Assembly: GCA_017460915.1 (NCBI GenBank)
Contig: JAFUAA010000029.1
Location: 24,643-88,642 of the forward strand
Source of the DNA: Bacteroidales bacterium
Lineage (GTDB): Bacteria; Bacteroidota; Bacteroidia; Bacteroidales; F082
Direction of reading: 5' to 3'
DNA: 64,000 nucleotides
How positions within the stretch are numbered: the stretch's first letter is position 1; every line of letters starts with the position of its first letter. The translations under genes were made by a program, and so were the position numbers. The notes beneath the pieces were generated by a model. It worked only from the letters and a program-made list of their open reading frames with translations, did not search any database and was not told the origin of the DNA. Shown here piece after piece: positions 32,174 through 63,198 of this stretch.

Positions 32174-32220
32174 CATACGGAAAAGTGTAGCATCATCACA
32201 CAAATCCATACGAAAAAGTG
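32174..32220 (+). repeat. 33-bp-period leader repeat of ATPase A
   Basis: CATACGGAAAAGTG at 32174-32187 recurs 33 bp later as CATACGAAAAAGTG at 32207-32220, separated by 19 unrelated bases. The second copy ends 6 bp before the ATG. The core GAAAARTG-like motif is shared with the 34-bp-period repeats in front of the ATPase gene at 61673. Confidence 0.7.
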
Positions 32221-32226
32221 CATTTT

Positions 32227-33546
32227 ATGAGAATAAAGAGAGAGATAGAAGACCAATTATTGGCTTGGAAGCAGTCCAAAAACAGGAAACCGTTATTATT
32301 GCAAGGAGCGCGTCAGATTGGAAAAACTTGGATGATGGAGGCTTTCGGGAAGGCCTATTACGACTATTGCGTGAAGTTCGACTTCGACCGCCATCCCGAA
32401 TACAAAGATGCATTCCTGACCTCCAAAGATCCAGAAAGAGTGCTGAAGGAATTAGCCATTTATAGCAATGTGCCGTTGCTCCCCGAAAAGACGCTCATCA
32501 TCTTCGACGAAATCCAAGAATGCGAGGAGGCTCTGAACAGCCTGAAATATTTCTACGAGGATGCCCCGCAATACCACATCATAGCGGCAGGTTCGCTGCT
32601 TGGCGTGGCCGTAAAAAAGCGAAGCATGAGCGTTCCCGTCGGCAAGGTGAAGATGATGCGAATGTATCCGCTCACTTTCCGCGAGTTCCTACGCGCATCA
32701 GACCCGAAGACCTTTGAATACATTGACGCCATCCAAACCGCTGAACACCTTCCCACGATGGTTTTGAACAAACTACTGCTGGAATACAAGCGGTATCAGG
32801 TCTGCGGCGGAATGCCAGAAGCGGTCGTGGCCATGCTCGACAACCAAGGCATGGAGGCCGTTGAAGAAGCGTTGCAGGGCATTTTGGACTTGTACGAATT
32901 GGATTTTGCGAAATACGCCAATCCCGTGGAAATACCGAGAATCCGCACCATTTGGCATTCGCTATCTTCGCAACTGTCGAAGGGAAACCGAAAGTTCATC
33001 TATAAGGTGATTCGCTCAGGGGCACGGTCGAAGGACTACGAGGATGCCTTGCTATGGCTCAAGGATGCCGGCCTGATTTACCAGATTTTCAACATCTCCA
33101 AACCCGGCATTCCCTTGAGCGGCTATGCCGAGCCAGATGCCTTCAAGGTCTATGCCTGCGATTGCGGCTTGCTGCGCCGATTGGCCCATGTGACTGCCGA
33201 CACCATCATCAACTACAATGCGGGTTTCACGGAATTTAAGGGCGCATTGGCGGAGAATGTGGTGCTTCAATCCTTGGTGAGCAACAAGGATGCCGAAGTA
33301 CCGTATTATTGGACTTCGGGCAACACCGCGGAAGTGGAGTTTGTCATCCAACACCAATCGGAAATCATCCCCATCGAAGTGAAGGCCGAGGGTAATGTGT
33401 GCGGCAAAAGCCTGACCGTCTATAACAACCGCTACCAGCCCAAACACAGGGTGCGGTTTTCCGCCAACAACCTCCAGCAGAACGATAATTTGTTGAGTAT
33501 CCCCTCGCCTATGGCGTGCTGGCTGATGAAATTCTTGGAGGAATAA
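32227..33546 (+). CDS. AAA ATPase with DUF4143 domain (copy A)
   Basis: A 439-residue protein starting MRIKREIEDQLLAWKQSKNR. The N-terminal AAA_14 domain has Walker A LLLQGARQIGKTWMM (residues about 22-36) and Walker B TLIIFDEIQECEEALNSLKY near 90, with the sensor-like HIIAAGSLLGV. The middle is winged-helix-like, and the C-terminal DUF4143 region has EVEFVIQHQSEIIPIEVKAE near 383, matching the E...ExK pattern of PD-(D/E)XK nuclease folds. This family is very common in anaerobes and archaea, usually as isolated genes, and its role is not established. It ends 3 bp from the stop of the convergent broken propeller-like gene. No frameshift seen. Confidence 0.9.
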   Translation: MRIKREIEDQLLAWKQSKNRKPLLLQGARQIGKTWMMEAFGKAYYDYCVKFDFDRHPEYKDAFLTSKDPERVLKELAIYSNVPLLPEKTLIIFDEIQECEEALNSLKYFYEDAPQYHIIAAGSLLGVAVKKRSMSVPVGKVKMMRMYPLTFREFLRASDPKTFEYIDAIQTAEHLPTMVLNKLLLEYKRYQVCGGMPEAVVAMLDNQGMEAVEEALQGILDLYELDFAKYANPVEIPRIRTIWHSLSSQLSKGNRKFIYKVIRSGARSKDYEDALLWLKDAGLIYQIFNISKPGIPLSGYAEPDAFKVYACDCGLLRRLAHVTADTIINYNAGFTEFKGALAENVVLQSLVSNKDAEVPYYWTSGNTAEVEFVIQHQSEIIPIEVKAEGNVCGKSLTVYNNRYQPKHRVRFSANNLQQNDNLLSIPSPMACWLMKFLEE

Positions 33547-33549
33547 TCC

Positions 33550-34806
33550 TTATTCCCCAATCCTCACCTGATACAAAGCCTTGCGCTTGTTGATGCCCGT
33601 GGGATAGATGAAATACAACACGCCGTTGTGGATTCGCATCTTTTGCGCGAAAGGATATCCGCTCAGGTCCTTCACGGAATTGGCCGTTCCCGTCTGCAAA
33701 TCAATTCGTTTCAGGGTATAGATGCCGTCGTTGACAAAGAAAGTGTAGAACTGCTTGGCGCCTTTGTCCACCAAAACCTGATGCTTCCAGCGGTGGTCGG
33801 GCAGGATTTTCCCATTCCAGTTGCGGTATTCGTGGAAAGTGAGCGGATAATGTTCCAACTCATTGCCATCAGCATCAAAAACGAGGGTTTCGCGGTCGGT
33901 GAAAGCCAAAATGTAGAACTTCTTGTCGATTTCAAAGATGGGGTTGTTGATAGGATCGGCGACCCCAAAAATTGGTGCCTATACCGCCCGTGTGGAGCAA
34001 AAACCAAATATCGTCGCGGGCTTCCTCGTCCACGATGTAATGGAACTGTTCGGGCTCTTCATCGCTGCCCAACCGATGGCGATAATAGCCCATTTCTTTG
34101 TTGTAATAGAAGTAGCGGCCTGTGATATAAACGCTGTCGGCAGCGGCCAAAATGGTGGAAAACTTGTCCTGGAAAGACTTCCGCGACATGGAATGATAGA
34201 AGTTCATCTGGCCTTTCTTTCCATTGCCGTACTCAATACCTGACTGGCTTGGTAGTCGTTGAGCGCGTGGATTTCGCCGAAAGCGTCTTGGTTGAGGTAT
34301 TTGTAGCGCGACGAAATCGGCATTTCGTGCAGCGTGTCCATGTCAAAGGAAAGGTGCAGCAAAGCGGAATTCCAACGCCGATAGACAATCATATAGATGC
34401 CGTCCTCGCGGATGGTGTAGTCGATGACGCTCATCACGGGGTTGTCGAAAACAACGTGCGGCGCATTGGCCGTGATTTCCACTTCAAGCAACTCATGGCT
34501 CTTTGTCTTCATACTGATTTTCAAGTTCTTGCCATTCAAATCCTTCTCCTTGACGGTGTAATAAGTCGGTTCGAAGACCATGTGCGCAAACCGAAGTTGT
34601 TCGCCCGCTTTGACATGTCCAAAAGCGAAGCGGCCTTTATCGTCGGTGACCGAAACGAGGAGTGAATCGCGAATGTAAACGCTCACATTCTCAATGGGTT
34701 TTCCGTTTTCGTCGCTGCAAACGCCTTGCAGGAAAGCAGGCTCCTGCGCCTTCATCTGAAAGGCCAGATTGAGTGAAAGAAACAAGAGGAGTAAAGTCTT
34801 TTTCAT
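33550..34806 (-). pseudogene. carboxypeptidase-regulatory/propeller-like protein with two frameshifts
   Basis: The N-terminal part is a signal peptide (MKKTLLLLFLSLNLAFQMKA) and a carboxypeptidase-D regulatory-like domain (FLQGVCSDENGKPIENVSVY, DDKGRFAFGHVKAGEQLRF). By comparison with the intact paralogue at 36366, the frame shifts near 34238-34246 (correct continuation GIEYGNGKKGQMNFYHSMSR, SFQDKF) and again near 33962-33972 at an A5/C4 run (continuation VADPINNPIFEIDKKFYILA). The last frame ends KRKALYQVRIGE. Joined, the product would be about 415 residues with a 6-bladed propeller-like C-terminal part. As read here it cannot make a full protein. Its 3' end faces ATPase A with only 3 bp between. 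Confidence 0.8.
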
Positions 34807-34911
34807 AGCCAAAGTATTTTATTTCGGCTACAAAAATAGATATTTTAAAAACAAAAAAAAACATTTTAGAAAGAATTTATGCAATCGACCTTGCTATAAC
34901 CCGAATAGCCA

Positions 34912-35007
34912 TATACGAATATCACAAAAACACAAACCAAAACGCAGCAAAAACATAAAGCAAAATACCGCAAAAATATAAAGTAAAATACCACAAAAAC
35001 ATAAAAT
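34912..35007 (+). repeat. four 23-bp-period tandem repeats upstream of ATPase B
   Basis: The motif CAAAAACA or CAAAAATA begins at 34925, 34948, 34971 and 34994, exactly 23 bp apart. Units read approximately AAAATACCACAAAAACATAA with the first and second degenerate (AATATCACAAAAACACAAAC; AAAACGCAGCAAAAACATAA). They end about 26 bp upstream of the -7 element of ATPase B. The design resembles the repeats at 54703-54772 in front of the related ATPase C. Confidence 0.85.
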
Positions 35008-35032
35008 CAACGTGAGATAACGAATATTTTAC

Positions 35033-35040
35033 TATCTTTG
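35033..35040 (+). promoter_or_regulatory. -7 element of ATPase B
   Basis: TATCTTTG followed by CGCC, 28 bp before the ATG; matches TAnnTTTG. Confidence 0.65.
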
Positions 35041-35067
35041 CGCCAGATATTTAGATTGATTTTGACA

Positions 35068-36357
35068 ATGGATTACTTACATCGCGTGTTTGACACCCAA
35101 TTATCAGAGTATTTGGATGCTTTTGGAGCCGTTCTCATTGAGGGCCCAAAATGGTGCGGAAAGACCACCACAGCCATGCAACAAGCAAAAAGCATCTTGA
35201 AAATGCAAGAGCCTGACAACATAGAGGCCAATCTGTCCACCGCACAAACCAAACCCTCTATTTTGCTGAAGGGCGACACGCCAAGGCTCATTGACGAATG
35301 GCAAGTTGCACCTGTGCTTTGGGATGCCGTGCGCACCATGGTGGACGAGCGTTCCGAGCCTGGGCAGTTCATCCTAACAGGTTCAAACGCTGTTGACCGC
35401 TCAAAAATCAGGCACAGCGGAACGGGACGAATCGCACGGCTGGAAATGCTGCCCATGAGTTTGTTCGAGTCAAAGGAGTCCAATGGAAGCATTTCGCTAA
35501 CCCAGCTTTTCAACGACCCCGACTTGGACATTGATGGCATTCGTTCCGATTTGAGCATTGAACAGCTTGTGTTTGCCGCTTGCCGAGGCGGATGGCCTGC
35601 TTCATTGAGCCGAAAAACGGAAAAAGCCCAGTTGCTGATTGCCAAAAACTACATCACGACGGTTTGCGAGGTAGACATCCAAAACATTGACGGAGTGAAC
35701 CGCAACGCCAACCTTGCGCGCGCCATTTTGCGTTCCTACGCCCGCAACCTATCTACACTTGCAAAGAAGGCGAGCATTGTGGCTGATGTCAACGCGACCA
35801 CCGAGACCTTATCGTTGCCCACTTTCGACGACTATCAACAAGCCTTGCAAAAGTTGTTTCTCATTCAAGACATTGAGGCTTGGAGCCCGGCTATACGCTC
35901 AAAAAGCGCCATCCGAAGCGGCTTGAAACGCGAATTGGCCGACCCATCCATGGCTGTTGCCGCCTTGGGGCTGTCGCCAGAGGTTCTAATGACTGACATG
36001 AAGACTTTCGGATTTTTCTTTGAGTGCCTATGTGTTAGGGATTTGAGAGTCTATTCCCAAGGATTGGGTAGCCATGTCAGTTATTACCACGACCGCTATA
36101 ATTTGGAGGCCGATTTCGTCTTGCATCTTGACGATGGTCGTTACGCGCTCATCGAATGCAAGTTAGGCAGTCGAGACATTGAGGAAGGAGCACAACACCT
36201 AATACAATTAAAGGACCTTATCAGGAAATTCAACAAGGAAAACACGCTCACGCAACTTCGCGAGCCCGACTTGCTCATCATTCTGACGGGCGGACAGTTG
36301 GCCTACACTCGACCCGACGGCGTGAAAATCATTCCGATTGGCTGCTTAAAAGACTGA
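35068..36357 (+). CDS. AAA ATPase with DUF4143 domain (copy B)
   Basis: A 429-residue protein starting MDYLHRVFDTQLSEYLDAFG; an in-frame TTG ten codons earlier overlaps the promoter and is rejected. Walker A is GAVLIEGPKWCGKTTTAMQQ near residue 20, Walker B TPRLIDEWQVAPVLWDAV near 72, with GQFILTGSNAVDRS as sensor region. The C-terminal part has LEADFVLHLDDGRYALIECK near 350 (E-D...ExK, nuclease-fold-like) and ends KIIPIGCLKD. With copy C at 54843 it forms a subfamily (GPKWCGKTTTA, IGCLKD) distinct from copies A and D. Its stop is 8 bp from the stop of the convergent propeller-like gene. Function unknown. Confidence 0.9.
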   Translation: MDYLHRVFDTQLSEYLDAFGAVLIEGPKWCGKTTTAMQQAKSILKMQEPDNIEANLSTAQTKPSILLKGDTPRLIDEWQVAPVLWDAVRTMVDERSEPGQFILTGSNAVDRSKIRHSGTGRIARLEMLPMSLFESKESNGSISLTQLFNDPDLDIDGIRSDLSIEQLVFAACRGGWPASLSRKTEKAQLLIAKNYITTVCEVDIQNIDGVNRNANLARAILRSYARNLSTLAKKASIVADVNATTETLSLPTFDDYQQALQKLFLIQDIEAWSPAIRSKSAIRSGLKRELADPSMAVAALGLSPEVLMTDMKTFGFFFECLCVRDLRVYSQGLGSHVSYYHDRYNLEADFVLHLDDGRYALIECKLGSRDIEEGAQHLIQLKDLIRKFNKENTLTQLREPDLLIILTGGQLAYTRPDGVKIIPIGCLKD

Positions 36358-36365
36358 TCTTGAAA

Positions 36366-37721
36366 TCATTCAATCCTCACCCTATTCAGCACCCCTTGGT
36401 TCTTTCCTGCATCGAAAAACACGCTGTAGGCATAGCCGCCGTGCACCATGAACACTTTGGGGTAGATTTTCTTGCTGGCTTTTTGTCCTATGCCGACAGA
36501 GCCTGTCTCAGGATCGTACAGGCCAACATGATATACCCCATTGTCCACGAACAATCCGTATACCTTACCCGTGGTCTTGTCGATGAGGAACTCATTTCTG
36601 AAAAACTTCTCGCCCGAAGTGACCAAAAGAGGCCGTCTTTCTGTAACCTTGAAGTCCTGACCGATTTCCACGATTTCACGGTTGTCAAGACCAACGAATT
36701 GAAGCCGGTCATTGATTATTAAAGGAACAATTTGGTATTCCTTTTTTGCCAGCATGGAGCAATACCTTTGTATCATTCCAAGCAAAGTCGGGGTTTCGGC
36801 CAATCGCACCAGATTCCCGTCCCATATTCCTTCGTTGATGAGGTCAATTCCGTTTTCCTCTGTCACCGCTTGATGGTATTCGTTTTGGATGTTCATCCAT
36901 GCCGACTGGCAGACGCGGTAGCCTAGGGTGTCAATGAAACTGCATAGATATTGCGGTTTTTCCATGGAGCCGTCTTTCATCATGTAAAGGTAATCCTGAC
37001 TTTTTCCGTGATTGAATTTAAGCCAGTAGAGACCTCTGTCGTGTACTATTGTCTTGACAATGTATGCCCCATTGAACTCGCACACGATTTTGAGCAATTT
37101 ATTGCGGAAATCCTCCCGTGAGAAAGTGGAAACGGACAGAATGCCTTGTTTTTCATCAAGATACACCTGCAAGCAACTATCCTGCCCGACAAGAATCAGG
37201 TCGTTGAAAGCGTCAATGTGCAGTTTCTCAAAGAGTTGGTCGAAATCCTTGCGTGCCAACTCTATACCATCGGTGTCTAAAACAACCATCGACGAGGCTT
37301 TGGGACGGTTTCCCAGCAGGTAGATTTTGTTGTCCATAAACGCAATGTCGGCAATGTTACGGTTGGTTCCCGACCTATAGAAATCCTGATAAGCCGAAAC
37401 GCCCACTTCCTGAAGGTCGTAACTCATCTTCCGCATTCGGAAACTGATATTGATGGAATCGCGCTGCAATTGCTTTGTCGAAAGACTCACTACGGTATCG
37501 TTATAACCGATGCAAGAATAATACAGGTTGATTTGATTCGAGCGGTCGTAAATCGGCAGCCAATAATGGCCTTTGGCGTCGGTGCTGGTGCCGTAAGGCG
37601 TATTCACGATGCTGATGTTCACGTTCTCCACGCCGAGGTTGCCGTAAACCATGGTTTTGGTTTGGGCAATGAGTAGGGTTGAAATGAAAAGAAAAAAGCA
37701 GAGGGTAAGCGTATTTTTCAT
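36366..37721 (-). CDS. carboxypeptidase-regulatory/propeller-like exported protein
   Basis: The intact paralogue of the broken gene at 33550: 451 residues with a signal peptide (MKNTLTLCFFLFISTLLIAQ), a carboxypeptidase-regulatory-like beta-sandwich (NVNISIVNTPYGTSTDAKGH, YYSCIGYNDTVVSL), then propeller-like repeats (NIADIAFMDNKIYLLGNRPK, GLYWLKFNHGKSQDYLYMMK, KVYGLFVDNGVYHVGLYD, KVFMVHGGYAYSVFFDAGKN). Such two-part proteins are common in Bacteroidetes periplasm or surface; no function is assigned. It is convergent with ATPase B, mirroring the other ATPase/propeller pair. Confidence 0.8.
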   Translation of the reverse strand: MKNTLTLCFFLFISTLLIAQTKTMVYGNLGVENVNISIVNTPYGTSTDAKGHYWLPIYDRSNQINLYYSCIGYNDTVVSLSTKQLQRDSINISFRMRKMSYDLQEVGVSAYQDFYRSGTNRNIADIAFMDNKIYLLGNRPKASSMVVLDTDGIELARKDFDQLFEKLHIDAFNDLILVGQDSCLQVYLDEKQGILSVSTFSREDFRNKLLKIVCEFNGAYIVKTIVHDRGLYWLKFNHGKSQDYLYMMKDGSMEKPQYLCSFIDTLGYRVCQSAWMNIQNEYHQAVTEENGIDLINEGIWDGNLVRLAETPTLLGMIQRYCSMLAKKEYQIVPLIINDRLQFVGLDNREIVEIGQDFKVTERRPLLVTSGEKFFRNEFLIDKTTGKVYGLFVDNGVYHVGLYDPETGSVGIGQKASKKIYPKVFMVHGGYAYSVFFDAGKNQGVLNRVRIE

Positions 37722-37784
37722 AAGCGGCATTTTTCGGAGTGAAATCGTTGAAAATCACCACAAAAATCATGCCTCGAATAGGGT

Positions 37785-38864
37785 CTATGTGTTACAAATG
37801 CTTTGTATTTCCTCAAACACCGCCTCGGCTTCATCCTTTTGCAGCCCGAACTTAGCGGCAAGTTGAATGGCATCTTTCTTTCCAGGGTCTTTGTAGTTGC
37901 CGTTCACGGAAAGGCTGTGGTAGCCGCCCAAGCCTTCGCAGGGTAGCACATCGTAGGCGGGAGCCTGTTGCCACACATCGTTGCAGCGGATGAAAGCGAA
38001 GTTCTTCACATGGTCGTCGCAGTTGCCGATAATGAGATTGAATGCCATCAGACGAAACACTTTCCACAGTTCCTTGACGGAATGCGTCAGTTGGCTGCAA
38101 GCCCAAAACAGATGGGCGTAGTCGGCGGTGGGCAGACGATAATCGAGGTTCATCAGCGCGGAGAGGCTGATAACATGCAGTTTGCCACCGTCATCTGTAC
38201 GATCGAAACGCTTGGTGCCAAAGTATTTTCCCTCGAAAAGCCGCGTTTCGGCCATCTCAATGCCACATGCGCGAGCAAGCAATGAGGTCTCGTATTCGAT
38301 TTTGCCCACATTGGGAGGGTCGGTGCGGTCGCGGAATTTCACTAACCATTCAGCACCATCGTAATGCACGAAGACTTTTGGCCTTGTGCCGCCCGAGGAA
38401 CCTCCGCGCCGCCAAGCCTTGTCCAAGTTGTCGGAGTAATCCGTGTTCAGCACCCGTTGCGATTCTTCCGCCATACGGTCGAGGTCGATAATGTCTTGCT
38501 CATCGACGGTACTCAAATCGGGATGGTACTCCAAAGCACCACGCCCACGACTCCCGACAAACACCAACTGTTCCAATAAATTCAAGGAAGCCAGCGACTT
38601 GCCCTGCGACCTCAAGTAACGGTCGAGCACCAAAGCACTCCAGCCATCGGGAAGGCTATCGTCGAACACGCCGAAGTTGCCGTCAAAAGGTTTCGCGTCG
38701 GCGGTGAACAGCCTTGACTCCAAAGGCAAGTGAAACGGCGAGATGGAAAAGTCGTTCCGAATCCAGTCCGCATCGTATTCGAACATCAAACGGCTTTCGC
38801 TGTTCAAAGCCAATCTCCCGACTTTGCGCGAGCCTAAAGTCACTTCAACAATCTTTTCATTCAT
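37785..38864 (-). CDS. hipA: HipA-family serine/threonine kinase toxin
   Basis: A 359-residue HipA-like kinase, start MNEKIVEVTLGSRKVGRLAL within the end of hipB (8-bp overlap). N-terminal subdomain FSISPFHLPLESRLFTADAK, GVFDDSLPDGWSALVLDRYL, the phosphate-binding SSGGTRPKVFVHYDG, and the kinase motifs IIGNCDDHVKNFAFI (catalytic Asp/Asn) and APAYDVLP (DFG-equivalent Asp) are intact. E. coli HipA phosphorylates glutamyl-tRNA synthetase and causes growth arrest; targets vary between families, so this one is not assigned. It ends with a TAG stop. Confidence 0.92.
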   Translation of the reverse strand: MNEKIVEVTLGSRKVGRLALNSESRLMFEYDADWIRNDFSISPFHLPLESRLFTADAKPFDGNFGVFDDSLPDGWSALVLDRYLRSQGKSLASLNLLEQLVFVGSRGRGALEYHPDLSTVDEQDIIDLDRMAEESQRVLNTDYSDNLDKAWRRGGSSGGTRPKVFVHYDGAEWLVKFRDRTDPPNVGKIEYETSLLARACGIEMAETRLFEGKYFGTKRFDRTDDGGKLHVISLSALMNLDYRLPTADYAHLFWACSQLTHSVKELWKVFRLMAFNLIIGNCDDHVKNFAFIRCNDVWQQAPAYDVLPCEGLGGYHSLSVNGNYKDPGKKDAIQLAAKFGLQKDEAEAVFEEIQSICNT

Positions 38865-39183
38865 TGCGTTTCCCTCGCTTTCTGTTTTTTTGGTTAGATG
38901 CCAGTGCCTCATCCAAGGTGGCGTACTTGTGTGCGGCAAACACCTGGTCGAAGTCGTTCAGCGCATCCAAGGCATAGGCGATATGAAGCAATCCGTCCAA
39001 GGAAATCTTGCCCGTCCGCTCGAAGCGGCGGTAGGTCGCCAAAGGCACTCCCGAACGCGCCGACATCCCTTCCTGCGTCAAGTTCATCTCCAATCGACGC
39101 GCCTTTGCCCGTTCAGCCAATGCTTTCGCCTTGCCTTCTGGTGATACAGTATCAAATGATAATATATTATCAATTATATCCAT
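38857..39183 (-). CDS. hipB: HipB-type Xre antitoxin
   Basis: A 108-residue protein with an Xre helix-turn-helix at about residues 24-72 (AKARRLEMNLTQEGMSARSG, VPLATYRRFERTGKISLDGL, LHIAYALDALNDFDQVF) and a basic C-terminal tail (SNQKNRKRGKRNE). It overlaps hipA by 8 bp. As in hipBA modules it should neutralise the kinase and repress its own operon. Two palindromes that could be its operator lie inside its first codons (39143-39172), unusual unless the true promoter or start is also there. Confidence 0.88.
   Translation of the reverse strand: MDIIDNILSFDTVSPEGKAKALAERAKARRLEMNLTQEGMSARSGVPLATYRRFERTGKISLDGLLHIAYALDALNDFDQVFAAHKYATLDEALASNQKNRKRGKRNE
39143..39172. promoter_or_regulatory. candidate HipB operator inside hipB
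   Basis: TGATAATATATTATCA (39157-39172) is a perfect 16-bp palindrome and GATACAGTATC (39143-39153) is an 11-bp palindrome; both lie in codons 4-14 of hipB as annotated. They share the TGATA/TATCA half-site type typical of HipB-like operators. Confidence 0.45.
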
Positions 39184-39320
39184 AATTATTCATTAAATGT
39201 TCAAATATTAGCGTTTGCAAAGATACAACTTTTTGCATATATGGCTTCATTAATGCAAAAAAATTGGGCCAGCAAAACCTTGCCAGCCCAAATTGTGAAA
39301 AACGATGTAAAACCAATTGC

Positions 39321-40847: not shown

Positions 40848-40857
40848 GATATTTCGT

Positions 40858-41541: not shown

Positions 41542-41564
41542 GTTTTCTGTTTTTTCGGCAGAGG

Positions 41565-41654
41565 TTGACACCGCCTGCCTATTTTGTTTTCGCCCCTACG
41601 GGGCTGGCAGGGACTGACGTCGCCTGCTTATTGGTCTGTCGCCCCTACGGGGCT
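41565..41654. repeat. two-copy 49-bp tandem repeat upstream of trmB
   Basis: CGCCCCTACGGGGCT occurs at 41591-41605 and again at 41640-41654, exactly 49 bp apart, each preceded by a related stretch (GACACCGCCTGCCTATTTTG and GACGTCGCCTGCTTATTGGT). The palindromic core CCCCTACGGGG makes each copy a hairpin. It fills the gap between trmB and the SPOR gene and probably is a dispersed intergenic repeat. Confidence 0.7.
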
Positions 41655-41659
41655 AAACT

Positions 41660-43401: not shown

Positions 43402-43403
43402 TT

Positions 43404-50512: not shown

Positions 50513-50521
50513 TTATCTGAG

Positions 50522-50815: not shown

Positions 50816-50843
50816 GGCACAATCGGGTTACGGAATTGTTCTG

Positions 50844-52655: not shown

Positions 52656-52669
52656 CAAAAAAGGAAACG

Positions 52670-53920: not shown

Positions 53921-53944
53921 AGACGGTGTACACACCGTCTCTAC
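53917..53944. repeat. 28-bp intergenic palindrome, TGTAGAGACG family
   Basis: GTAGAGACGGTGT and ACACCGTCTCTAC are complementary arms around a 2-nt centre. The outer bases match the copies at 3401, 7348 and 10577. It overlaps the TAG stop of the DUF2851 gene and lies just before the end of the convergent HTH gene, so it may terminate both. Confidence 0.85.
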
Positions 53945-53948
53945 AAGG

Positions 53949-54577: not shown

Positions 54578-54641
54578 TTGGAAGCGATGGGGAAAGAGAT
54601 AGTTTTTGTTTATGATGTTTAGATTTTTAAGTTTGACGCTG

Positions 54642-54683
54642 CAAAAGTAAAGCAAACTTTCCAATTAGACAAATTAATTTGTC
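54642..54683 (-). promoter_or_regulatory. promoter and palindromic operator of the HTH/membrane operon
   Basis: On the minus strand TACTTTTG is at 54642-54649, 20 bp after a TTG that lies within the perfect palindrome GACAAATTAATTTGTC (54668-54683). The palindrome thus overlaps the -33 element, a good position for Xre repression. Confidence 0.6.
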
Positions 54684-54702
54684 GTTTTTTTCAGACAAAA
54701 CC

Positions 54703-54772
54703 AAAATTTCCACAAACGACCGAACAAATTGACCACAAATAACCGAACAAAATCATCACAAACGACCGAAAT
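54703..54772 (+). repeat. three 23-bp-period tandem repeats upstream of ATPase C
   Basis: CACAAACGACCGAAC, CACAAATAACCGAAC and CACAAACGACCGAAA begin at 54711, 54734 and 54757, exactly 23 bp apart, each preceded by AAAAT or AAATT. They end about 38 bp before the -7 element of the ATPase. The period and the AAAAT-CCACAAA layout are shared with the repeats at 34912. Confidence 0.85.
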
Positions 54773-54809
54773 TTTATCAAAATACTTGCATAATAAAAAA
54801 CAAAACCAA

Positions 54810-54817
54810 TATTTTTG
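54810..54817 (+). promoter_or_regulatory. -7 element of ATPase C
   Basis: TATTTTTG followed by CAGCG, with TTG 21 bp upstream (54786-54788), 26 bp before the ATG. Confidence 0.65.
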
Positions 54818-54842
54818 CAGCGTTTTTGAAAACTTCCAAACG

Positions 54843-56119
54843 ATGAAGGCAAAATACAAACCGAGAATCGCTGACAGGCTACTTGCCAGAAAATTGGCAG
54901 GCAAAGGAGCCGTTTTGGTGGAAGGGCCAAAATGGTGCGGCAAGACCACGACTGCGCAACAACAAGCCAAGAGTTTGCTCAATCTTGGCGATAGCGAGGT
55001 CCTGAACCAAAGCCTTCGGATGATGGAAATCAGTCCAAAAACGCTATTGCAGGGCGAAACACCACGCCTGATCGACGAATGGCAGACCATTCCCCGCTTT
55101 GGGACAGCATACGCAGCGAAGTGGTCCAACGCGGCGAGTTTGCCCAATTCATCCTGACAGGCTCGTCGGTGCCCCCCCAAGCCAATGAAACCACCCATAG
55201 CGGGACAGGACGTTTTGCCCACATCAAAATGCGGCCAATGAGCCTGTTCGAGTCGGGCGAATCTACGGGAAGCGTAAGCCTTGACGCTTTGTTCGACGGC
55301 AACACCTTTGAGCCACAACCTTGCGAACTCGACCTCCAAAATATAGCCTACCTGACTTGCCGAGGCGGTTGGCCACAAGCCACGCTGATAGATGGCGACA
55401 TCGCTTTGGACCAAGCCTTTGATTACCTCGATGCGGTGACCGAACGCGACATCCAGCGCGTAGATGGAGTGAAACGCAGCCCCGAACGAACCAAGTTGCT
55501 GTTGCGCTCCTACGCCCGAAACGTCTCACAACAGGTTTCCTACGGCACCATCAAGGCCGATATGCTATCGAACGACCCAAAAACGCTCGATGAAGACACC
55601 GTGGCTGACTATATCAAAGCACTAAAGCAACTCTTTGTCATAGAAGACCTTGCGGCTTGGAATCCCAACATTCGCAGCAAATCAGCCATCCGAACCAGCG
55701 ACACTCGGCACTTTGTCGATCCAAGCATCGGCACGGCCGCATTAGGTTTGGGCCCCAACGACTTAATCAACGACCTGAATGCTTTTGGGCTACTGTTTGA
55801 AGACCTTGCTGTGCGCGACTTGCGTGTGTTTGCCGAAGCGCTCGATGGCAAATTGTACCATTATCGCGACAGCTCGGGATTGGAATGTGACACTATCTTG
55901 CACCGTCGCAACGGTTCCTACGCACTGATTGAGGTAAAACTTGGCGGTGAAAAACTCATTGAGGAAGGTGTGGCTTCGCTAAACAGCCTTGCCAACACCA
56001 TCGACACAGATCGAATGCACAAGCCTGCGTTTATGATGGTTCTGACCGCCGTGGGGCCATATGCCTACCAGCGCAAAGACGGAATTTTTGTCGTCCCCAT
56101 CGGTTGCCTGAAGGATTAA
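54843..56119 (+). pseudogene. AAA ATPase with DUF4143 domain (copy C), frameshifted
   Basis: The first frame begins MKAKYKPRIADRLLARKLAG with Walker A VLVEGPKWCGKTTTAQQ and reaches TPRLIDEWQTIP, then runs out of frame. One base missing in the C4 run at 55092-55095 would restore PLWDSIRSEVVQRGEFAQFI and LTGSSVPPQANETTHSG, and the rest follows intact to GIFVVPIGCLKD, including LECDTILHRRNGSYALIEVK (E-D...ExK pattern). Restored, the protein has about 425 residues and is the closest relative of copy B at 35068. The shift lies in a homopolymer, so it may be a sequencing error, a true lesion or a reversible slip. Not functional as written. Confidence 0.85.
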
Positions 56120-56209
56120 AGTGAGTTTTTCCAACAATCTTATTCCACTCAATCAACTATTTTCCTATTATTGCAAATCATTTCCGTTGATATTTCAAAC
56201 ATTCACGAT

Positions 56210-58216
56210 ATGGAAAACGAACAATTCAAACTGCCCGAGAACGCGCACCGCGAACTGAAACAGGGCGAAGAGTATGAGCCTATACTCTCGAAAAACAAGA
56301 AGTATCAAGAAGTTACGGTTTGGTCGGTTTGCATCGGCCTACTGATGACCATTCTGTTTTCGGCTGCCGCCGCCTACCTCGGCTTGAAGGTCGGGCAGGT
56401 GTTTGAGGCCGCCATCCCGATTGCCATCATCGCCATCGGCCTGACGGGACTGGCGCGCAAGAACGACGCCCTCTCGCAAAACGTCATCATCCAAAGCATC
56501 GGCGGCTGCTCGGGCGGCGTGGTGGCCGGCGCCATCTTCACCCTGCCAGCGCTCTACATCTTGCAAGGCAAAGGCTACCACATCGAAATCAACTTCTGGC
56601 AGGTGTTCATTGCCTCCTTGCTCGGCGGCATCTTGGGCATCCTGTTCCTCATCCCCTTCCGCAAATATTTCGTCAAGGAACAACACGGCAAGTTCCCCTT
56701 CCCCGAAGCCACGGCCACGACTCAAGTCTTGGTGAGCGGACAGAAGAAAGGCAAGGATTCTTTGCTACTGGTTATCAGTGGCTTGATTGGCGGTTTGTAT
56801 GACTTCATCGTCTCCACCTCCGGATGGTGGTCGGAGACCATCACCACACGCATGATGGGTTGGGGCGCCATGGTTGCCGACAAAGCCAAACTGATGTTCA
56901 AGGTGAACACGGGCGCGGCTGTGCTCGGCTTGGGTTACATCATCGGACTGAAATACGCCTTCATCATCTGCTGCGGCTCGATGCTGGTTTGGTTCATCAT
57001 CATTCCAGGCATGAACCTCATCTGGGGCAACCAAGTCATCGACCTGATGAACACGGGCGTGCTGCAAACCATTGGCGAGATGTCGCCCGAACAGATTTTC
57101 AAGGACTATGCGCGCCACATCGGCATCGGCGGCATCGCCATGTCGGGTGTCATCTCAATCATCAAATCGTGGGGCGTGATTAAGTCGTCGGTGGGCCTTG
57201 CCGCCAACGAGTTCAAAGGCAAGAAAGCCAGCGGCGAGCCCGTCGACCGCACGCAGCAAGACCTCTCGATGAAGACCGTCGTCATCGGCATCGTGGTCGT
57301 TTTGCTCATCACCTTCCTGTTCTTCTGGTTCGGCGTGGTGCACAACTTCGGTCACGCCTTGATTGGCATTCTGGTGGTGGCCGTCATCGCCTTCCTGTTT
57401 ACGACGGTGGCCGCCAACGCCATCGCCATCGTGGGCAGCAACCCCGTGAGCGGTATGACGCTGATGACCTTGATTTTGGCCTCCTTGGTGATGGTCGCCG
57501 CCGGACTGAGTGGTCCCAAAGGTATGACTGCCACATTAATTATAGGTGGCGTGGTCTGCACGGCTTTGGCCGTGGCAGGCGCCTTCATCACCGACCTGAA
57601 AGTCGGTTATTGGATTGGCACGACGCCCAAGAAGCAAGAGATTTGGAAGTTCGTCGGCGTGGCCGTGGCCGCTGCCACCGTCGCTGGTGTGATTATGGTG
57701 CTGAACAAGACCTACGGTTTTGTGGGCGACGACGCTCTAGTGGCTCCGCAAGCCAACGCCATGTCGGCCGTCATCGAGCCGATGATGTCGGGCGGTCACG
57801 CGCCGTGGCTGCTCTACGGCATCGGTGCCGCCATCGCCTTGATCCTCAATTTCTGCAAGGTGCCGGCCCTTCCGTTCGCCTTGGGCATGTTCATCCCGAT
57901 TGACCTCAACGCGCCGTTGCTCATCGGTGGTGCCGTGTCGTGGTTCGTGAGCTCGCGCGGCAAGAACCAGAAACTCAATGACGCCCGCTACAACCGTGGC
58001 ACTTTAATCGCCTCTGGTTTCATTGCCGGTGGCGCCCTGATGGGTGTGGTGAGTGCCATCCTCAAGTTCGCCAACGTTGATGCCGTAGCCAAGACCGCCG
58101 ACGGAACGCCGTTTGCCGAGCTGCCCGTGGCCGGCCTCATCGCCTTGGTGATGTATATCGTCATCATCGTCTACATGATTTGGGACTCGAAGCGGGCGAA
58201 GGTAGAAGAAGAATAA
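56210..58216 (+). CDS. OPT family oligopeptide transporter
   Basis: A 668-residue transporter starting MENEQFKLPENAHRELKQGE, with about 15 hydrophobic helices (e.g. TVWSVCIGLLMTILFSAAAA, IGGCSGGVVAGAIFTLPAL, IFTLPALYILQGKGYHIEIN). NIVIQSIGG-like SQNVIIQSIGGCSGGVVAGA and FPFPEATATTQVL are family hallmarks. Members take up peptides or iron-siderophore-like compounds; the substrate is unknown. An in-frame codon 13 residues earlier gives a less typical start. It is between ATPase C and mfd; no regulatory feature seen. Confidence 0.93.
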   Translation: MENEQFKLPENAHRELKQGEEYEPILSKNKKYQEVTVWSVCIGLLMTILFSAAAAYLGLKVGQVFEAAIPIAIIAIGLTGLARKNDALSQNVIIQSIGGCSGGVVAGAIFTLPALYILQGKGYHIEINFWQVFIASLLGGILGILFLIPFRKYFVKEQHGKFPFPEATATTQVLVSGQKKGKDSLLLVISGLIGGLYDFIVSTSGWWSETITTRMMGWGAMVADKAKLMFKVNTGAAVLGLGYIIGLKYAFIICCGSMLVWFIIIPGMNLIWGNQVIDLMNTGVLQTIGEMSPEQIFKDYARHIGIGGIAMSGVISIIKSWGVIKSSVGLAANEFKGKKASGEPVDRTQQDLSMKTVVIGIVVVLLITFLFFWFGVVHNFGHALIGILVVAVIAFLFTTVAANAIAIVGSNPVSGMTLMTLILASLVMVAAGLSGPKGMTATLIIGGVVCTALAVAGAFITDLKVGYWIGTTPKKQEIWKFVGVAVAAATVAGVIMVLNKTYGFVGDDALVAPQANAMSAVIEPMMSGGHAPWLLYGIGAAIALILNFCKVPALPFALGMFIPIDLNAPLLIGGAVSWFVSSRGKNQKLNDARYNRGTLIASGFIAGGALMGVVSAILKFANVDAVAKTADGTPFAELPVAGLIALVMYIVIIVYMIWDSKRAKVEEE

Positions 58217-58221
58217 ATTCG

Positions 58222-58229
58222 TATCTTTG
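58222..58229 (+). promoter_or_regulatory. -7 element of mfd
   Basis: TATCTTTG followed by CGCC, 19 bp before the GTG at 58249. It lies inside any longer reading of mfd that begins near 58180, supporting the GTG start. Confidence 0.6.
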
Positions 58230-58248
58230 CGCCACAATTTCAAACATC

Positions 58249-61200
58249 GTGGCAAGCATTTCAAACCCAATCTATAAGAATGATGCCCGCATCGACGCGC
58301 TGAGCAAGGCTCTGCGCGACGGCGGGCATTTGCTGTGCACCAACCTGACGGCTTCGTCGAAGGCCTTTGTCGTGGAAGAGACCTTCCGCCGCTTTGGCGG
58401 GCAGCACCTCATCATTTGCGCCGATAAGGAAGACGCGGCCTATTTTTACAACGACCTCGAAAGCCTCCTCGGCGAGCGTGGCATGGACTACAGCAAAAAG
58501 CAGGTGCTCTTCTACCCCACTTCCTACAAACGTCCTTACGAGCCTGAGAAGCCTGACAACACCTATATCCTTTCGCGGACCGAAGTGCTGCAACGCGTTT
58601 CCACCTCCGAGCGCAAGACCTTGATAGTGAGCTATCCTGAGGCATTGAGCGAGAAAGTCTTCACCCGAAAGCTGTTGGCTAAAAACACCTTCAAAATCAA
58701 GGTGGGCGACAAAGTCAACCTCGATTTCCTCACCGATTTGCTCTACGAATACGAGTTTGAGAACGTGGATTTCGTGGTCGAGCCAGGGCAGTTTGCCATC
58801 CGTGGCGGATTGGTGGATGTGTTCTCGTTCGCCAACGACTATCCCTACCGCATCGAGTTTTTCGGCGACGAAGTCGATAGCATCCGCAGCTTCAACATCG
58901 CCGACCAGCTCTCCATCGAGAAGCTGAAACAGATTGTGCTGCTGCCCAACATGCAGGAGCGCGCCTTCATCGAGGAACGCGAAGCCATCCTGCAATACCT
59001 GCCCGACACAACCACCGTCTGGCTAACCGATATGGCCCTCTTCGCCACGCAAGTCGACAAGGAATACGACCGCGCCGTGGAGAATTTCGAGAAGATACAG
59101 GAGCAAGAGGAGGAAGTCAAAGCGCCAAAGCCCGCTTTGCTGTTCAGCAAATCACAAGAACTATTGGCAAGCTTGATAAAACATCCCACCGTTGAATTTG
59201 GTACTTCAAGTCATCTCACACCTCCTACCTCTAACCTCCTACCTCTCAACTTCCACGCCAAGCCCCAGCCCATCTTCAGCAAGAACTTCAACCTGCTCAT
59301 CGACGACATCAACGCACACAAAGAAGACGGCTACCGCGTCATCGTGTTTTCCGAAAGCAGCAAGCAACTTTCACGCATTCAGGCGATTCTGAACGACATC
59401 AACCACAAGGACGAGACGCACCGCGACTTCGAGACCGAGACCATCGCCATCCACGGAGGCTTCATCGACGAGGACTTGAAGGTGTGCTGCTACACCGACC
59501 ACCAGATCTTCGAGCGTTACCACCGCTTCCACCTGCGCGACAACTTCTCGACCAAGCAAGCCATCACGCTGAAGGACCTCTACGAGCTGAAGCCCGGCGA
59601 CTATGTCACCCACATCGACCACGGTATCGGGCGCTTCGACGGCTTGGAGACCATCGAGAACAACGGCAAGCCACAAGAGGATATCCGCTTGATTTACAAC
59701 AACGGCGACATACTCTATGTGAGCATCCACTCGCTACACCGCATCGCGAAATACAGCAGCAAGGACGGCACGGAGCCGCACCTCAGCACCCTCGGCTCCA
59801 ACGCTTGGAACCGACTGAAAACCAAGACAAAGAGCAAGGTCAAGGACATCGCTCGCGAGCTCATCAAGCTCTACGCCGAGCGCAAACGCACGCCGGGATT
59901 CAAGTTCTCGCCCGACAATTACCTGCAAAACGAACTCGAGGCCTCGTTCATCTACGAGGACACGCCCGACCAACTGAAGGCCACCAACGACGTGAAGCGC
60001 GACATGGAAAGCGAGAACCCGATGGACCGTCTCGTGTGCGGCGACGTGGGCTTCGGCAAGACCGAGGTCGCCATGCGCGCCGCTTTCAAGGCCTGCTGCG
60101 ACTCGAAGCAAGTGGCTGTGCTTGTGCCCACTACGGTGCTCGCCCTGCAACATTACCACACCTTCAGCGAGCGCTTCGACGGCTTCCCCGTCACCATCGA
60201 ATACCTCAACCGCTTCAAGACGGCGAAACAACAGACCGAAATCCTGAAACGCCTCGAAAAAGGCGAAATCGACATCATTATCGGGACGCACCGCCTCACA
60301 GGAAAAGACGTGAAATTCAAGGATTTGGGATTGCTCGTCATCGACGAGGAACAGAAATTCGGCGTGGCCGTGAAGGAAAAACTGAAAGAGATGAAGGCCA
60401 ACGTCGATACCTTGACTTTGACCGCCACACCCATTCCCAGAACCCTGCAATTCTCGATGATGGGCGCCCGCGACCTCAGCGTCATCACCACGCCGCCGCC
60501 CAACCGCTACCCCGTGCAGACCGAACTGCGCGGCTTCGACGGCGAACTCATCCGCGATGCCATCCAGTTTGAGATTGCTCGCAACGGTCAGGTCTTTTTC
60601 ATTCACAACCGCATCCAGAACATCATGGATGTGCACGATTTCATCCTGAAATACGTGCCGGGCGTGCGCATCGCCGTCGCCCACGGGCAGATGGAAGGCT
60701 CGAAACTTGAGGACATCATGCTCGGCTTCATCAACGGCGATTATGATGTGCTGCTTTGCACCACCATCGTCGAGTCGGGCCTCGACATCCCCAACGCCAA
60801 CACCATCATCGTCAACGACGCGCATCGTTACGGTCTCTCCGACTTGCACCAGTTGCGCGGTCGCGTAGGCCGTTCCAACAAGAAGGCTTTCTGTTACCTC
60901 CTGACGCCGCCGTTGAACACGCTCACCCAAGAAGCCCAGAAACGTCTTCGTGCCTTGGAGGAGTTCTCCGACCTCGGCGAAGGCATCAACATCGCCATGC
61001 GTGACCTCGACATCCGTGGCGCGGGCAACCTGCTTGGCGCCGAACAGAGCGGTTTTATCAACGACATCGGCTTCGAGACCTACCACAAGATTTTGGACGA
61101 GGCCATCCTCGAACTGAAAGAGACTGAATTTCAGGATATTTTCGACAAGGAAGAAGAGAAATCCTACGTCGCGGACTGCACCATCGAGACCGACATGGAA

Positions 61201-61638
61201 GTGCGTTTCCCCTCGGATTACATCAACTCGACGCAGGAGCGCGTGAGCCTCTACAGCGAACTCGACCACACCAAGACCGAGGAGGCCCTGATGAAGTTCA
61301 CCGACCATCTCATCGACCGTTTCGGACCAATCCCCAAGCAGGTCAACGACTTGCTGAACACCGTCCGCTTGCGCTGGATCGCCAAGGATTTGGGCTTCGA
61401 GAAAATCGTGTTGCGCCACCACAACATGACGGCCTATTTCGTCAGCAACCAGCAATCGAAATACTACGAGAGCGGGGCCTACAAAAACGTGATGCAGTAC
61501 ATCATCACCCACCCGAAACGCACGGCGGTGAAAGAGACGAACGACAAACTACAGTTGGTCGTGAAGGAGGTCAGCACGGTGACGCAAGCGCTGGATTTGC
61601 TGCGGGAAATGGCTTGCGCGGGAAATGCGGAATTGTGA
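58249..61638 (+). CDS. mfd: transcription-repair coupling factor
   Basis: 1,129-residue Mfd that removes RNA polymerase stalled at DNA damage and recruits UvrABC. A GTG start (VASISNPIYKND) is chosen because the -7 element TATCTTTG lies just upstream. Domains in order: UvrB-homology N-terminus (FLTDLLYEYEFENVDFVVEP, GQFAIRGGLVDVFSFANDYP), the RNA polymerase-interacting CarD-like region (KPGDYVTHIDHGIGRFDGLE), the helicase with Walker A VCGDVGFGKTEVAMRAAFKA and motif VIDEEQKFGV, then GAGNLLGAEQSG and a D7 domain near the end. No anomaly; the fourth ATPase gene is convergent 34 bp away. Confidence 0.97.
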   Translation: MASISNPIYKNDARIDALSKALRDGGHLLCTNLTASSKAFVVEETFRRFGGQHLIICADKEDAAYFYNDLESLLGERGMDYSKKQVLFYPTSYKRPYEPEKPDNTYILSRTEVLQRVSTSERKTLIVSYPEALSEKVFTRKLLAKNTFKIKVGDKVNLDFLTDLLYEYEFENVDFVVEPGQFAIRGGLVDVFSFANDYPYRIEFFGDEVDSIRSFNIADQLSIEKLKQIVLLPNMQERAFIEEREAILQYLPDTTTVWLTDMALFATQVDKEYDRAVENFEKIQEQEEEVKAPKPALLFSKSQELLASLIKHPTVEFGTSSHLTPPTSNLLPLNFHAKPQPIFSKNFNLLIDDINAHKEDGYRVIVFSESSKQLSRIQAILNDINHKDETHRDFETETIAIHGGFIDEDLKVCCYTDHQIFERYHRFHLRDNFSTKQAITLKDLYELKPGDYVTHIDHGIGRFDGLETIENNGKPQEDIRLIYNNGDILYVSIHSLHRIAKYSSKDGTEPHLSTLGSNAWNRLKTKTKSKVKDIARELIKLYAERKRTPGFKFSPDNYLQNELEASFIYEDTPDQLKATNDVKRDMESENPMDRLVCGDVGFGKTEVAMRAAFKACCDSKQVAVLVPTTVLALQHYHTFSERFDGFPVTIEYLNRFKTAKQQTEILKRLEKGEIDIIIGTHRLTGKDVKFKDLGLLVIDEEQKFGVAVKEKLKEMKANVDTLTLTATPIPRTLQFSMMGARDLSVITTPPPNRYPVQTELRGFDGELIRDAIQFEIARNGQVFFIHNRIQNIMDVHDFILKYVPGVRIAVAHGQMEGSKLEDIMLGFINGDYDVLLCTTIVESGLDIPNANTIIVNDAHRYGLSDLHQLRGRVGRSNKKAFCYLLTPPLNTLTQEAQKRLRALEEFSDLGEGINIAMRDLDIRGAGNLLGAEQSGFINDIGFETYHKILDEAILELKETEFQDIFDKEEEKSYVADCTIETDMEVRFPSDYINSTQERVSLYSELDHTKTEEALMKFTDHLIDRFGPIPKQVNDLLNTVRLRWIAKDLGFEKIVLRHHNMTAYFVSNQQSKYYESGAYKNVMQYIITHPKRTAVKETNDKLQLVVKEVSTVTQALDLLREMACAGNAEL

Positions 61639-61672
61639 GAATCTATAAGCCGTTCGCTCACTCGTCTGCTCA

Positions 61673-63022
61673 TTACAACAACGGCGTCATATAAAGCGGA
61701 AGAAAAACGATGCCGTTTTCCATCTTAACATCAGAAGTGTGAAGTACATACGGCGTTGTTGATTGTTCGGCGAATTTGACACGGAACTTCTCCAAAGAAG
61801 TGATAGTGTAACGGTTGGTCGATTTTACTTCTATCGGGCTGATGTTGTGTCGGTTGGTGAGTTGTGGCTTGGGAATCAAGAAGTCTATTTCCATGCGGTT
61901 TTCGGCCACTTTTCGGTCAGGATTGGAATAGAAATACAACTTGTGCCCTGAAACCCTTAACATTTGCGCCACCAAATTCTCCACCAACATTCCCTTGTTG
62001 ATTTCCAACTTATTGAGCATCAATTTTCTATACAGTTGCTCCTTGGCGATAATCCGCTCATCAAAAGCATGTGAGATGAGCAAGCCTGTATCACCGAAAT
62101 AGCATTTCAAGGTGGTGCGTTGACGGTTGAGCCTCAACCCAATATTAGGGGCAGTGGTATTGTAGCACAAATTGACCACGCAAGCATCATCAAGCCAGAA
62201 GAAAGCTTCCTCATAATCCCGCATCCTCGCCCCCGACCTCAAGGCCGAAAGCCGGAATTTCTTCTCGTGTTGTTGCAACTGGGCTGGGATTTCATCAAAA
62301 ATGCTTGTCACTCTTGTTTCCGCTTTGGTGGCGTATTTTCCGATGTCATTACGATAGAGCCTCAAAATGCCTCGTTTGGTTTCATCCACGGCATCAAAGT
62401 CCTTGGTATCGATGTAGGTCTGCACGGCTTGGGGCATTCCTCCCACAATCATATATTGACGAAGATAATCCATCACTTTGCGGTGCAGAGGGCCCAACGG
62501 CTCAAGCCGTTCGAATTGTCGCCTGACGAAGTCCATCGTCATGTCGTCGCCTAACGCCCACAGGAACTCCTCAAAGTCCATGGGGAACATTTCAATCCGC
62601 TGTTCCTCGGAAGGAATCACAATATCGGTCACATTCTTCTTGATGGAAATCAGCGACCCAGTCTCGATATAATCAAATCGGCCGTCTTGCACAAGGTATT
62701 TGATGGCCGCCCTTGCCTTGGGATATTGCTGCACCTCGTCGAAAATGATGAGCGATTCCCGAGGGTAAAGTTTCACGCCGAAATGCAAGGAAAGGCGAAG
62801 GAAAAGTTCGTCTCGGTTCGACAGGTAATGTTCGAAAATGTTCAGTAATTCCTCTTCCATATCATTGAAATCCACAAGGATATATGACTTGTATTCGTTT
62901 TTGCCAAAGTCTTCAACGATATAGCTTTTGCCAATGCGCCGTGCACCTTCGAGCAACAAGGCTGTCTTGCCTTGCTTCTCGTTTTTCCATTTCATCAATT
63001 CCTGATAGATTTTTCTTCTCAT
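61673..63022 (-). CDS. AAA ATPase with DUF4143 domain (copy D)
   Basis: 449 residues starting MRRKIYQELMKWKNEKQGKT; an in-frame ATG nine codons upstream lies at the edge of the repeat region and is not used. Walker A LLLEGARRIGKSYIVEDF near residue 23, Walker B SLIIFDEVQQYPKARAAIKY near 88, YIETGSLISIKKNVTDI, and a C-terminal EIDFLIPKPQLTNRHNISPI then EVKSTNRYTITSLEKFRVK, the E-D...ExK pattern. It resembles copy A in the GARxIGK Walker A and N-terminus. It is preceded by 34-bp-period repeats and an inverted repeat. Function unknown. Confidence 0.9.
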   Translation of the reverse strand: MRRKIYQELMKWKNEKQGKTALLLEGARRIGKSYIVEDFGKNEYKSYILVDFNDMEEELLNIFEHYLSNRDELFLRLSLHFGVKLYPRESLIIFDEVQQYPKARAAIKYLVQDGRFDYIETGSLISIKKNVTDIVIPSEEQRIEMFPMDFEEFLWALGDDMTMDFVRRQFERLEPLGPLHRKVMDYLRQYMIVGGMPQAVQTYIDTKDFDAVDETKRGILRLYRNDIGKYATKAETRVTSIFDEIPAQLQQHEKKFRLSALRSGARMRDYEEAFFWLDDACVVNLCYNTTAPNIGLRLNRQRTTLKCYFGDTGLLISHAFDERIIAKEQLYRKLMLNKLEINKGMLVENLVAQMLRVSGHKLYFYSNPDRKVAENRMEIDFLIPKPQLTNRHNISPIEVKSTNRYTITSLEKFRVKFAEQSTTPYVLHTSDVKMENGIVFLPLYMTPLL

Positions 63023-63039
63023 GATTTTCAGCGATTTGC

Positions 63040-63125
63040 ACCTTTTCAAGGGATAAGACCAGCCATTTTATACACTTTTTCAAGGGATAAGAAATGCTGT
63101 TCCATACACCTTTTCAAGGGATAAC
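63040..63125 (-). repeat. 34-bp-period tandem leader repeats of ATPase D
   Basis: On the gene's strand three copies of TTATCCCTTGAAAAGGTG (middle copy AAAAAGTG) recur every 34 bp; on the plus strand TTTTCAAGGG begins at 63043, 63077 and 63111. They are separated by 16-bp segments that differ from each other. The last copy ends about 18 bp before the ATG at 63022. The core GAAAARGTG is shared with the repeats of ATPase A. Confidence 0.88.
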
Positions 63126-63131
63126 TGGCTG

Positions 63132-63139
63132 CAAAGAAA
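63132..63139 (-). promoter_or_regulatory. -7-like element before ATPase D
   Basis: TTTCTTTG followed by CAGCC on the minus strand is one mismatch from TAnnTTTG. Initiation from here would place all three repeats in the transcribed leader. Confidence 0.4.
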
Positions 63140-63152
63140 CAAAAAAATACGC

Positions 63153-63198
63153 TATAATCAGCCATAAGTCGCTTTTTTTCGAATTATGGCTGATTATA
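63153..63198. repeat. 15-bp perfect inverted repeat upstream of ATPase D
   Basis: TATAATCAGCCATAA at 63153-63167 has its exact inverted copy TTATGGCTGATTATA at 63184-63198, spacer 16 bp. It lies between the ATPase D promoter region and the SH3b gene. It could be an operator or an RNA hairpin; no T tract follows, so a terminator is less likely. Confidence 0.8.

Follow-up and report, generated by a model that had tools for sequence, protein, structure and literature searches.

Clade-specific tandem repeat arrays upstream of AAA_14/DUF4143 ATPase genes, candidate private operators of an abundant prokaryotic gene family

The stretch of DNA analysed here (the window; 64,000 nucleotides, positions 24,643 to 88,642 of contig JAFUAA010000029.1, assembly GCA_017460915.1, from a Bacteroidales bacterium of GTDB family F082) carries four genes of the AAA_14/DUF4143 ATPase family, here called copies A to D, each preceded by a tandem repeat array (Table 1). 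An initial annotation made from the sequence alone had described four ATPases with repeats of period 33 or 34 bp before A and D and of 23 bp before B and C, and had proposed that the repeats are the DNA or RNA target of the protein itself, as in an autoregulated or toxin-antitoxin-like cassette. When the arrays were checked by direct reading of the DNA and with Tandem Repeats Finder (TRF), and the genes with Pfam, repeats were found before all four genes, weakly before A, and with the periods claimed. Array D has the second highest TRF score within the window, and array A, the weakest of the four, is unlisted by TRF. Three of the ATPases are intact, and the fourth, copy C, is broken by a frameshift, its downstream open reading frame (ORF) matching DUF4143 and its upstream fragment holding the Walker A motif. 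Copies A, B and D score above both curated Pfam cut-offs (PF13173, AAA_14, and PF13635, DUF4143) and the downstream piece of C above that for DUF4143 only; the PADLOC models of PDC-S01, a single-gene phage defence candidate, match A, B, D and the same piece of C (best E 2.2e-168, for A).

Table 1. Family genes, arrays and associated elements in the window.
Feature	Position	Strand	Description
Array A	32174..32222	+	two units CATACGRAAAAGTGYA, spacing 33 bp, last base 4 bp before ATG
Array A units	32174-32189; 32207-32222	+	CATACGGAAAAGTGTA; CATACGAAAAAGTGCA; spacing 33 bp
Array A -7 box	32152-32159	+	TATTTTTG; array placed downstream of box
Copy A	32227..33546	+	AAA_14 + DUF4143 ATPase, 439 aa, Walker A GARQIGKT; Pfam, PADLOC PDC-S01
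Array B	34925..35005	+	period 23 bp, 3.5 copies; TRF
Array B -7 box	35033-35040	+	TATCTTTG; 27 bp downstream of array end
Copy B	35068..36357	+	AAA_14 + DUF4143 ATPase, 429 aa, Walker A GPKWCGKT; Pfam, PADLOC
Array C	54702..54770	+	period 23 bp, 3.0 copies, upstream of -7 box TATTTTTG at 54810; TRF
Copy C	54843..56119	+	GPKWCGKT-type family gene, frameshifted (broken) in assembly; ORFs 54729-55157 and 55079-56119
Array D	63037..63124	-	three units TTATCCCTTGAAAARGTGYA, spacing 34 bp, 2.5 copies by TRF
Array D units	63124-63105; 63090-63071; 63056-63037	-	period 34 bp
Array D -7-like box	63139-63132	-	TTTCTTTG; array begins 7 bp after box
Copy D	61673..63022	-	AAA_14 + DUF4143 ATPase, 449 aa, Walker A GARRIGKS; Pfam, PADLOC
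Array-plus-gene unit of D	61673..63147	-	86.6% identical to relative G112
Array-plus-gene unit of B	34918..36355	+	79% identical to G112

The source genome (2.98 Mb) holds 45 DUF4143 matches, 41 of them above the family cut-off, and 40 family genes have a Walker A motif and a readable start codon. In the 200 bp upstream of each gene we measured self-similarity at all shifts of 16-60 bp, with dinucleotide shuffles as background, calling a repeat strong at z ≥ 4. Strong repeats precede 35 of the 40 genes; for control genes the figure is 28 of 274, with some intergenic DNA in common between the two sets. The best shift is 32-34 bp in 28 of the 35, exactly 23 bp in six and 52 bp in one. The six 23-bp genes form one clade in the protein tree, with a K-x-CGK Walker A motif. 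An inverted repeat (z ≥ 3) is found before seven of eight genes lacking a strong direct array, a count that has no separate control. Between the paired contigs C33/C47 and C34/C48 family proteins recur unchanged, as do the 200 bp before them, whether as true duplicates or through duplication in the assembly.

The initial annotation had also proposed a survey across genomes, and in one of 281 distinct family genes with upstream DNA, drawn from the same bacterial family, the phylum, 80 named-genome loci and 30 viral-contig loci and spanning several phyla, the repeats are strongly enriched before family members. Strong arrays number 104 at lags of 32-34 bp, 69 at 23 or 46 bp and 9 at other lags, as against 2, 5 and 22 among 441 cleaned control genes, so that arrays of the two periods precede 173/281 family genes and 7/441 controls. 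The period goes with the protein: among the 75 proteins with a K-x-[CS]GK Walker A motif, 64 have lag 23, five lag 46, one lag 55 and none 32-34, and among the 206 others 104 fall at 32-34, eight at other lags and none at 23 or 46. The claim that repeat class follows protein subfamily is thereby borne out, the two periods never crossing clades among strong arrays. In the 200 bp downstream, z ≥ 4 is reached for 15 of 199 genes, and upstream for 116 of 209 in the same scoring. By source, strong arrays of any period precede 34/42 genes of the source genome, 30/32 D-type genes of the genus, 64/68 B-type genes of the genus and family, 34/84 genes of the named genomes, 18/26 viral ones and 2/29 of the phylum PF13635 set. 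Nearly all proteins of this last set carry the Walker A motif GPRQSGKT, and genes of that type have, in place of an array, a palindrome of ~35 bp (21/26, compared with 11/120 controls), mostly within 10 bp of the start codon. The repeat phenomenon is thus real and much wider than the four genes of the window.

The consensus unit of the 23-bp class, taken over 75 genes, is YRAAA....GCCAAA......RAA, in which A-rich blocks about 10 bases apart are widely common and the bases in between vary by locus. In the 68 arrays of the 33-bp class with at least three units, the best 16 columns are 93% alike and the rest 55%. Promoter position was counted in the source genome and the genus and family loci, using the simple pattern TAnnTTTG for the -7 box. 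All 69 arrays of the 23-bp class lie upstream of the box, as the initial annotation had said for B and C, and at a median gap of 28 bp they abut the -33 region. Its placement of the longer-period arrays between promoter and start codon is right for A and D and fails for the class as a whole, since among 49 strong 33-bp arrays with a box 25 straddle it, 22 lie upstream and 2 downstream (six further arrays have no box). The 10 bp between the two periods amount to about one turn of DNA, which suggests that neighbouring protein copies would stay on one face of the helix.

In the 23-bp class the letters of the arrays track the protein and not the host genome. Over its 69 arrays, similarity of the array words rises with protein identity (Mantel r 0.67; 0/500 permutations), and pairs within one genome are no more alike than their protein identity predicts (difference -0.0086; 226/1000 permutations as low), the direction being that of orthogonality beyond protein divergence, to no significant extent. 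For 45 of 50 copies with paralogues at home, the word is nearer to that of the closest protein abroad than to that of any home paralogue. The source genome itself holds many different array words, which speaks against a single host factor reading them all.

As far as the words tested indicate, they occur almost only before family genes or their remains. The word of array D (17 bp, up to 2 mismatches) has seven sites in the whole source genome, all 15-147 bp before a family start, and its control none; the word of array C has five, all in the arrays of C and of its paralogue on contig 36. Within loci of ~1.4-20 kb, the array word recurs outside its own array in 9 of 170, some just further upstream, and the reversed words once. 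When a D-type double site was sought in 99 genomes of the genus with its spacing left free from 30 to 35 bp, 18 arrays came up in 14 genomes, always at 32-34 bp, and the reversed pattern gave none. Thirteen of them precede a full family start, two a C-terminal fragment and three only the first codons, the orphans having been read individually and one judged by eye. The 23-bp double site gave eight arrays in eight genus genomes, seven before family genes and one cut by a contig end; the D double site was found on no viral contig. At one locus (L349) a D-type array follows a family gene that looks complete and precedes a C-terminal family fragment of 50 residues, another sign of turnover.

For B and D, array and gene together make up the unit shared with a relative. 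Similarity to relative G112 starts just outside the array and runs to the last base of the stop codon or to no more than 2 bp from it, and the surroundings of both units in G112 (15-20 kb) show no similarity to the window at E 1e-10 except for one paralogous match of 77 bp. The unit so delimited, in one relative each, holds no conserved adjacent partner gene, and the toxin-antitoxin-like reading of the initial annotation is not supported for B and D. For copy A, similarity to five relatives starts sharply at 32135 or 32136. G051 holds the true counterpart of the D locus (flanks 93.7 and 95% identical) but lacks the D gene there; the array of D persists at 97%, next to a different family gene whose own two-unit array (spacing 34 bp) is of another kind and present three times. 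Family genes thus come and go, and arrays can stay behind. A single orphan unit in the window at 63211-63234 (plus strand ATACCTGCGCATTGTCAAAAATGG) corresponds to the array of this G051 gene (about L334:6401-7759), and the right-flank similarity to G051 starts within it. An inverted repeat adjoins array D at 63154-63197 (ATAATCAGCCATAA...TTATGGCTGATTAT), with a similar one at L334:7836-7880. Beside the orphan D array in G051 lie an ORF (L334:5568-5765), apparently a fragment of a REP-associated transposase, and repeated GAGACGTTTCGGGAAACGTCTC elements, through which the D gene may have disappeared from this locus.

The proteins are predicted to combine an Orc/STAND-like ATPase, a winged helix and a PD-(D/E)XK-like domain. 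The AlphaFold models of copies A and D have a pLDDT of 94.5 and 87.9 respectively, and a fold search with model A places its AAA core, helical part and winged helix (residues 1-321) near the archaeal AAA/STAND ATPases 2qen and 2fna and the Orc1/Cdc6 structure 2qby. In the secondary structure of the whole protein the modelled winged helix comprises helices 236-250, 259-262 and 268-280 and strands 284-290 and 301-310. The VIA-align rows span residues 1-356 and barely cover the C-terminal domain, for which we therefore claim no fold match; it is a putative PD-(D/E)XK-like nuclease by our own assignment of residues E343, E369, D371, E384 and K386 of copy A, which are at least 90% conserved over 81 sequences. 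A sequence search of known structures gave no convincing homologue, the matches being to UPF0102 (60 residues at the C-terminus, a weak E of 1.1) and to midasin (46 residues of the ATP-binding part, E 3.3e-07). A REP/RAYT element was considered and rejected, AAA_14 and DUF4143 being the only domains at E 0.001 and a Y1 transposase domain being absent.

We consider it probable, from the sequence patterns above, that every array is bound by the product of the gene behind it, which in this way regulates its own expression, with the geometry of the array set by the clade. The gene product would be a DNA-binding AAA ATPase that reads a private array of sites on its own promoter, its copies binding side by side, 32-34 bp (some three DNA turns) apart in most of the family and 23 bp, a turn less, apart in the K-x-[CS]GK clade, and GPRQSGKT proteins would bind the dyad of the ~35-bp palindrome instead. 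We infer binding by the encoded protein, the formation of multimers and autoregulation alike. Occupancy of the array would control transcription of the gene: an array lying over the -7 box or the transcript start would mean repression, and one of the 23-bp class, which stops just short of the -33 region on its upstream side, either repression or activation. Private letters would let dozens of paralogues share one genome with little cross-control. The proposal of the initial annotation is in this way partly supported: the protein's own target is plausibly DNA, on indirect grounds, and RNA is an unlikely target given the position of the 23-bp arrays.

Several observations weigh against this reading. 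Strong repeats at any period precede 29/441 controls (182/281 family genes), and 108 of the 281 family genes, 26 of them of GPRQSGKT type, have no strong two-period array, including 52 of 84 in the named genomes; one copy in the source genome (L035) has neither array nor palindrome, its start being perhaps misassigned. Array A is itself among the 108: with z 4.25 (p 0.010) in the source-genome scoring it reached only 3.9 in the larger survey (threshold 4), and so is left out of the 173. Compared with five relatives over lags 25-45 only, it scores z 5.9, and they keep its spacing with units less alike (best lag 33 in 4/5, z ≤ 3.4). The gene downstream of A goes along with it, contiguous in three of the five relatives and ~1.8 kb off in two. 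In the 33-bp class 85% agreement is already reached by the top 16 columns after shuffling, and taken singly just 32 of 68 arrays have a core that beats 95% of shuffles; part of the likeness is therefore due to units having been duplicated recently. For motif C, three matches came from reversed control words as against five real ones. The correlation of word with protein may reflect joint inheritance alone, as the Mantel test leaves kinship in, and the host-effect test, confined to the 23-bp class, removes host effects only. A sliding partial Mantel analysis of the 69 proteins gave partial correlations up to 0.23, carrying no significance test, and did not locate a reading head; a shared fold, moreover, shows no function. 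Some Clostridia seem by eye to have mixed direct and inverted sites. Direct TGTGAT-like sites interleaved with inverted ATCACA-like ones are seen by eye at some named-genome loci (for example L118, L130 and L142) and are perhaps a fourth geometry.

The main alternative, unlikely though we hold it to be, is that the array, in the manner of iterons or transposon-end arrays, is mainly a site of recombination, homing or replication, with regulation a by-product and the unit a small mobile element. The sharp edges of the B and D units at the array and the stop codon, the abrupt start of similarity before A, the tripled array at the G051 locus, the predicted fold near DNA-bound Orc1/Cdc6 and the relatives at 30 viral-contig loci, one of them weak, would all suit it, as would four of 170 loci (L029, L052, L090 and L091) in which the array word returns in the same orientation within ~100 bp downstream of the gene; this array-gene-array arrangement is a hint as to a mobility mechanism. 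Arrays at both ends are exceptional, however, and neither target duplications nor terminal sequences came to light; the promoter geometry is consistent, the neighbour of A travels with it, and the orphan arrays look like the remains of deletions. A bolder form strikes us as rather improbable: array plus gene would be a minimal mobile element, an Orc-like ATPase-nuclease whose address array serves simultaneously as operator, mobility site and control of copy number. Were it true, units with the same address would shut each other off like incompatible plasmids, hence the dozens of mutually orthogonal units in one genome, and what passes for the fourth most common prokaryotic defence system would in fact consist of self-limiting elements in one huge family, defending perhaps only through attack on rivals with matching sites.

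A host regulator distinct from the family, with the family genes as its regulon and the arrays as its sites, would fit the placement of the arrays, which is typical of operators, but we rate it very unlikely in view of the many words in one genome, the lack of excess likeness between same-genome pairs, periods that follow protein clade in many genomes, and arrays that go with the gene in B and D. A role as 5' leader RNA, whether thermosensor, attenuator, protein-RNA autoregulation or guide-like array, seems highly improbable: arrays A and D do lie between the -7 box and the start codon, and the GPRQSGKT dyads near the start codon, but every 23-bp array and 22/49 of the 33-bp arrays sit upstream of the box, which leaves room for CRISPR/TIGR-like guide arrays only if they are transcribed from elsewhere, and an Rfam scan of the window at gathering score returned nothing but a tRNA. 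To neutral tandem duplication by slippage in AT-rich intergenic DNA we give practically no chance. Some arrays are near-perfect over the whole unit (the spacer of L184 is 91% alike), as slippage would produce, but the idea is already contradicted by the survey counts, with 7/441 controls, and by periods that each clade keeps across records of several phyla, and spacers have diverged while cores agree on average.

The private operators favoured here recall several known systems. Orc1/Cdc6 proteins bind repeated origin boxes, often beside their own gene; they and the archaeal AAA/STAND ATPases resemble the family, by its models, in AAA core, helical part and winged helix, whereas the family has an extra, putative PD-(D/E)XK-like C-terminal domain and arrays on promoters. 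Initiators of iteron-controlled plasmids likewise have direct repeats in tandem close to their gene, each of about two turns and private to the replicon; the present family, in contrast, occurs in dozens of copies in one genome assembly. Restriction C proteins and toxin-antitoxin systems have an operator on their own promoter, much as the arrays are operator-like, but B and D are single genes without a conserved partner, and their direct repeats have a fixed, long period.

With 9,986 members counted in archaea and 29,494 in bacteria (PMC12988326), PDC-S01 is among the most abundant uncharacterised prokaryotic gene families. The part of its published description available to us makes no mention of cis-acting arrays, and the family's role in defence is that of a candidate only. 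Our literature searches, whose scope excluded preprints (bioRxiv) and most subscription journals, found no description of such arrays or of a recognised target. The arrays supply a predicted DNA target for each protein and a rule tying protein clade to site spacing, and point to a natural set of apparently orthogonal regulators.

Two further repeats stand apart from the family. At L043:4354-4553 an array of period 33 bp (core TTTTTGTCATTTTTCCA, z 13) precedes a gene that is not a family member and looks by eye like a kinase-AAA fusion, and the top TRF score of the window (124) belongs to a 49-bp tandem repeat at 41557-41654, apparently unrelated to the family.

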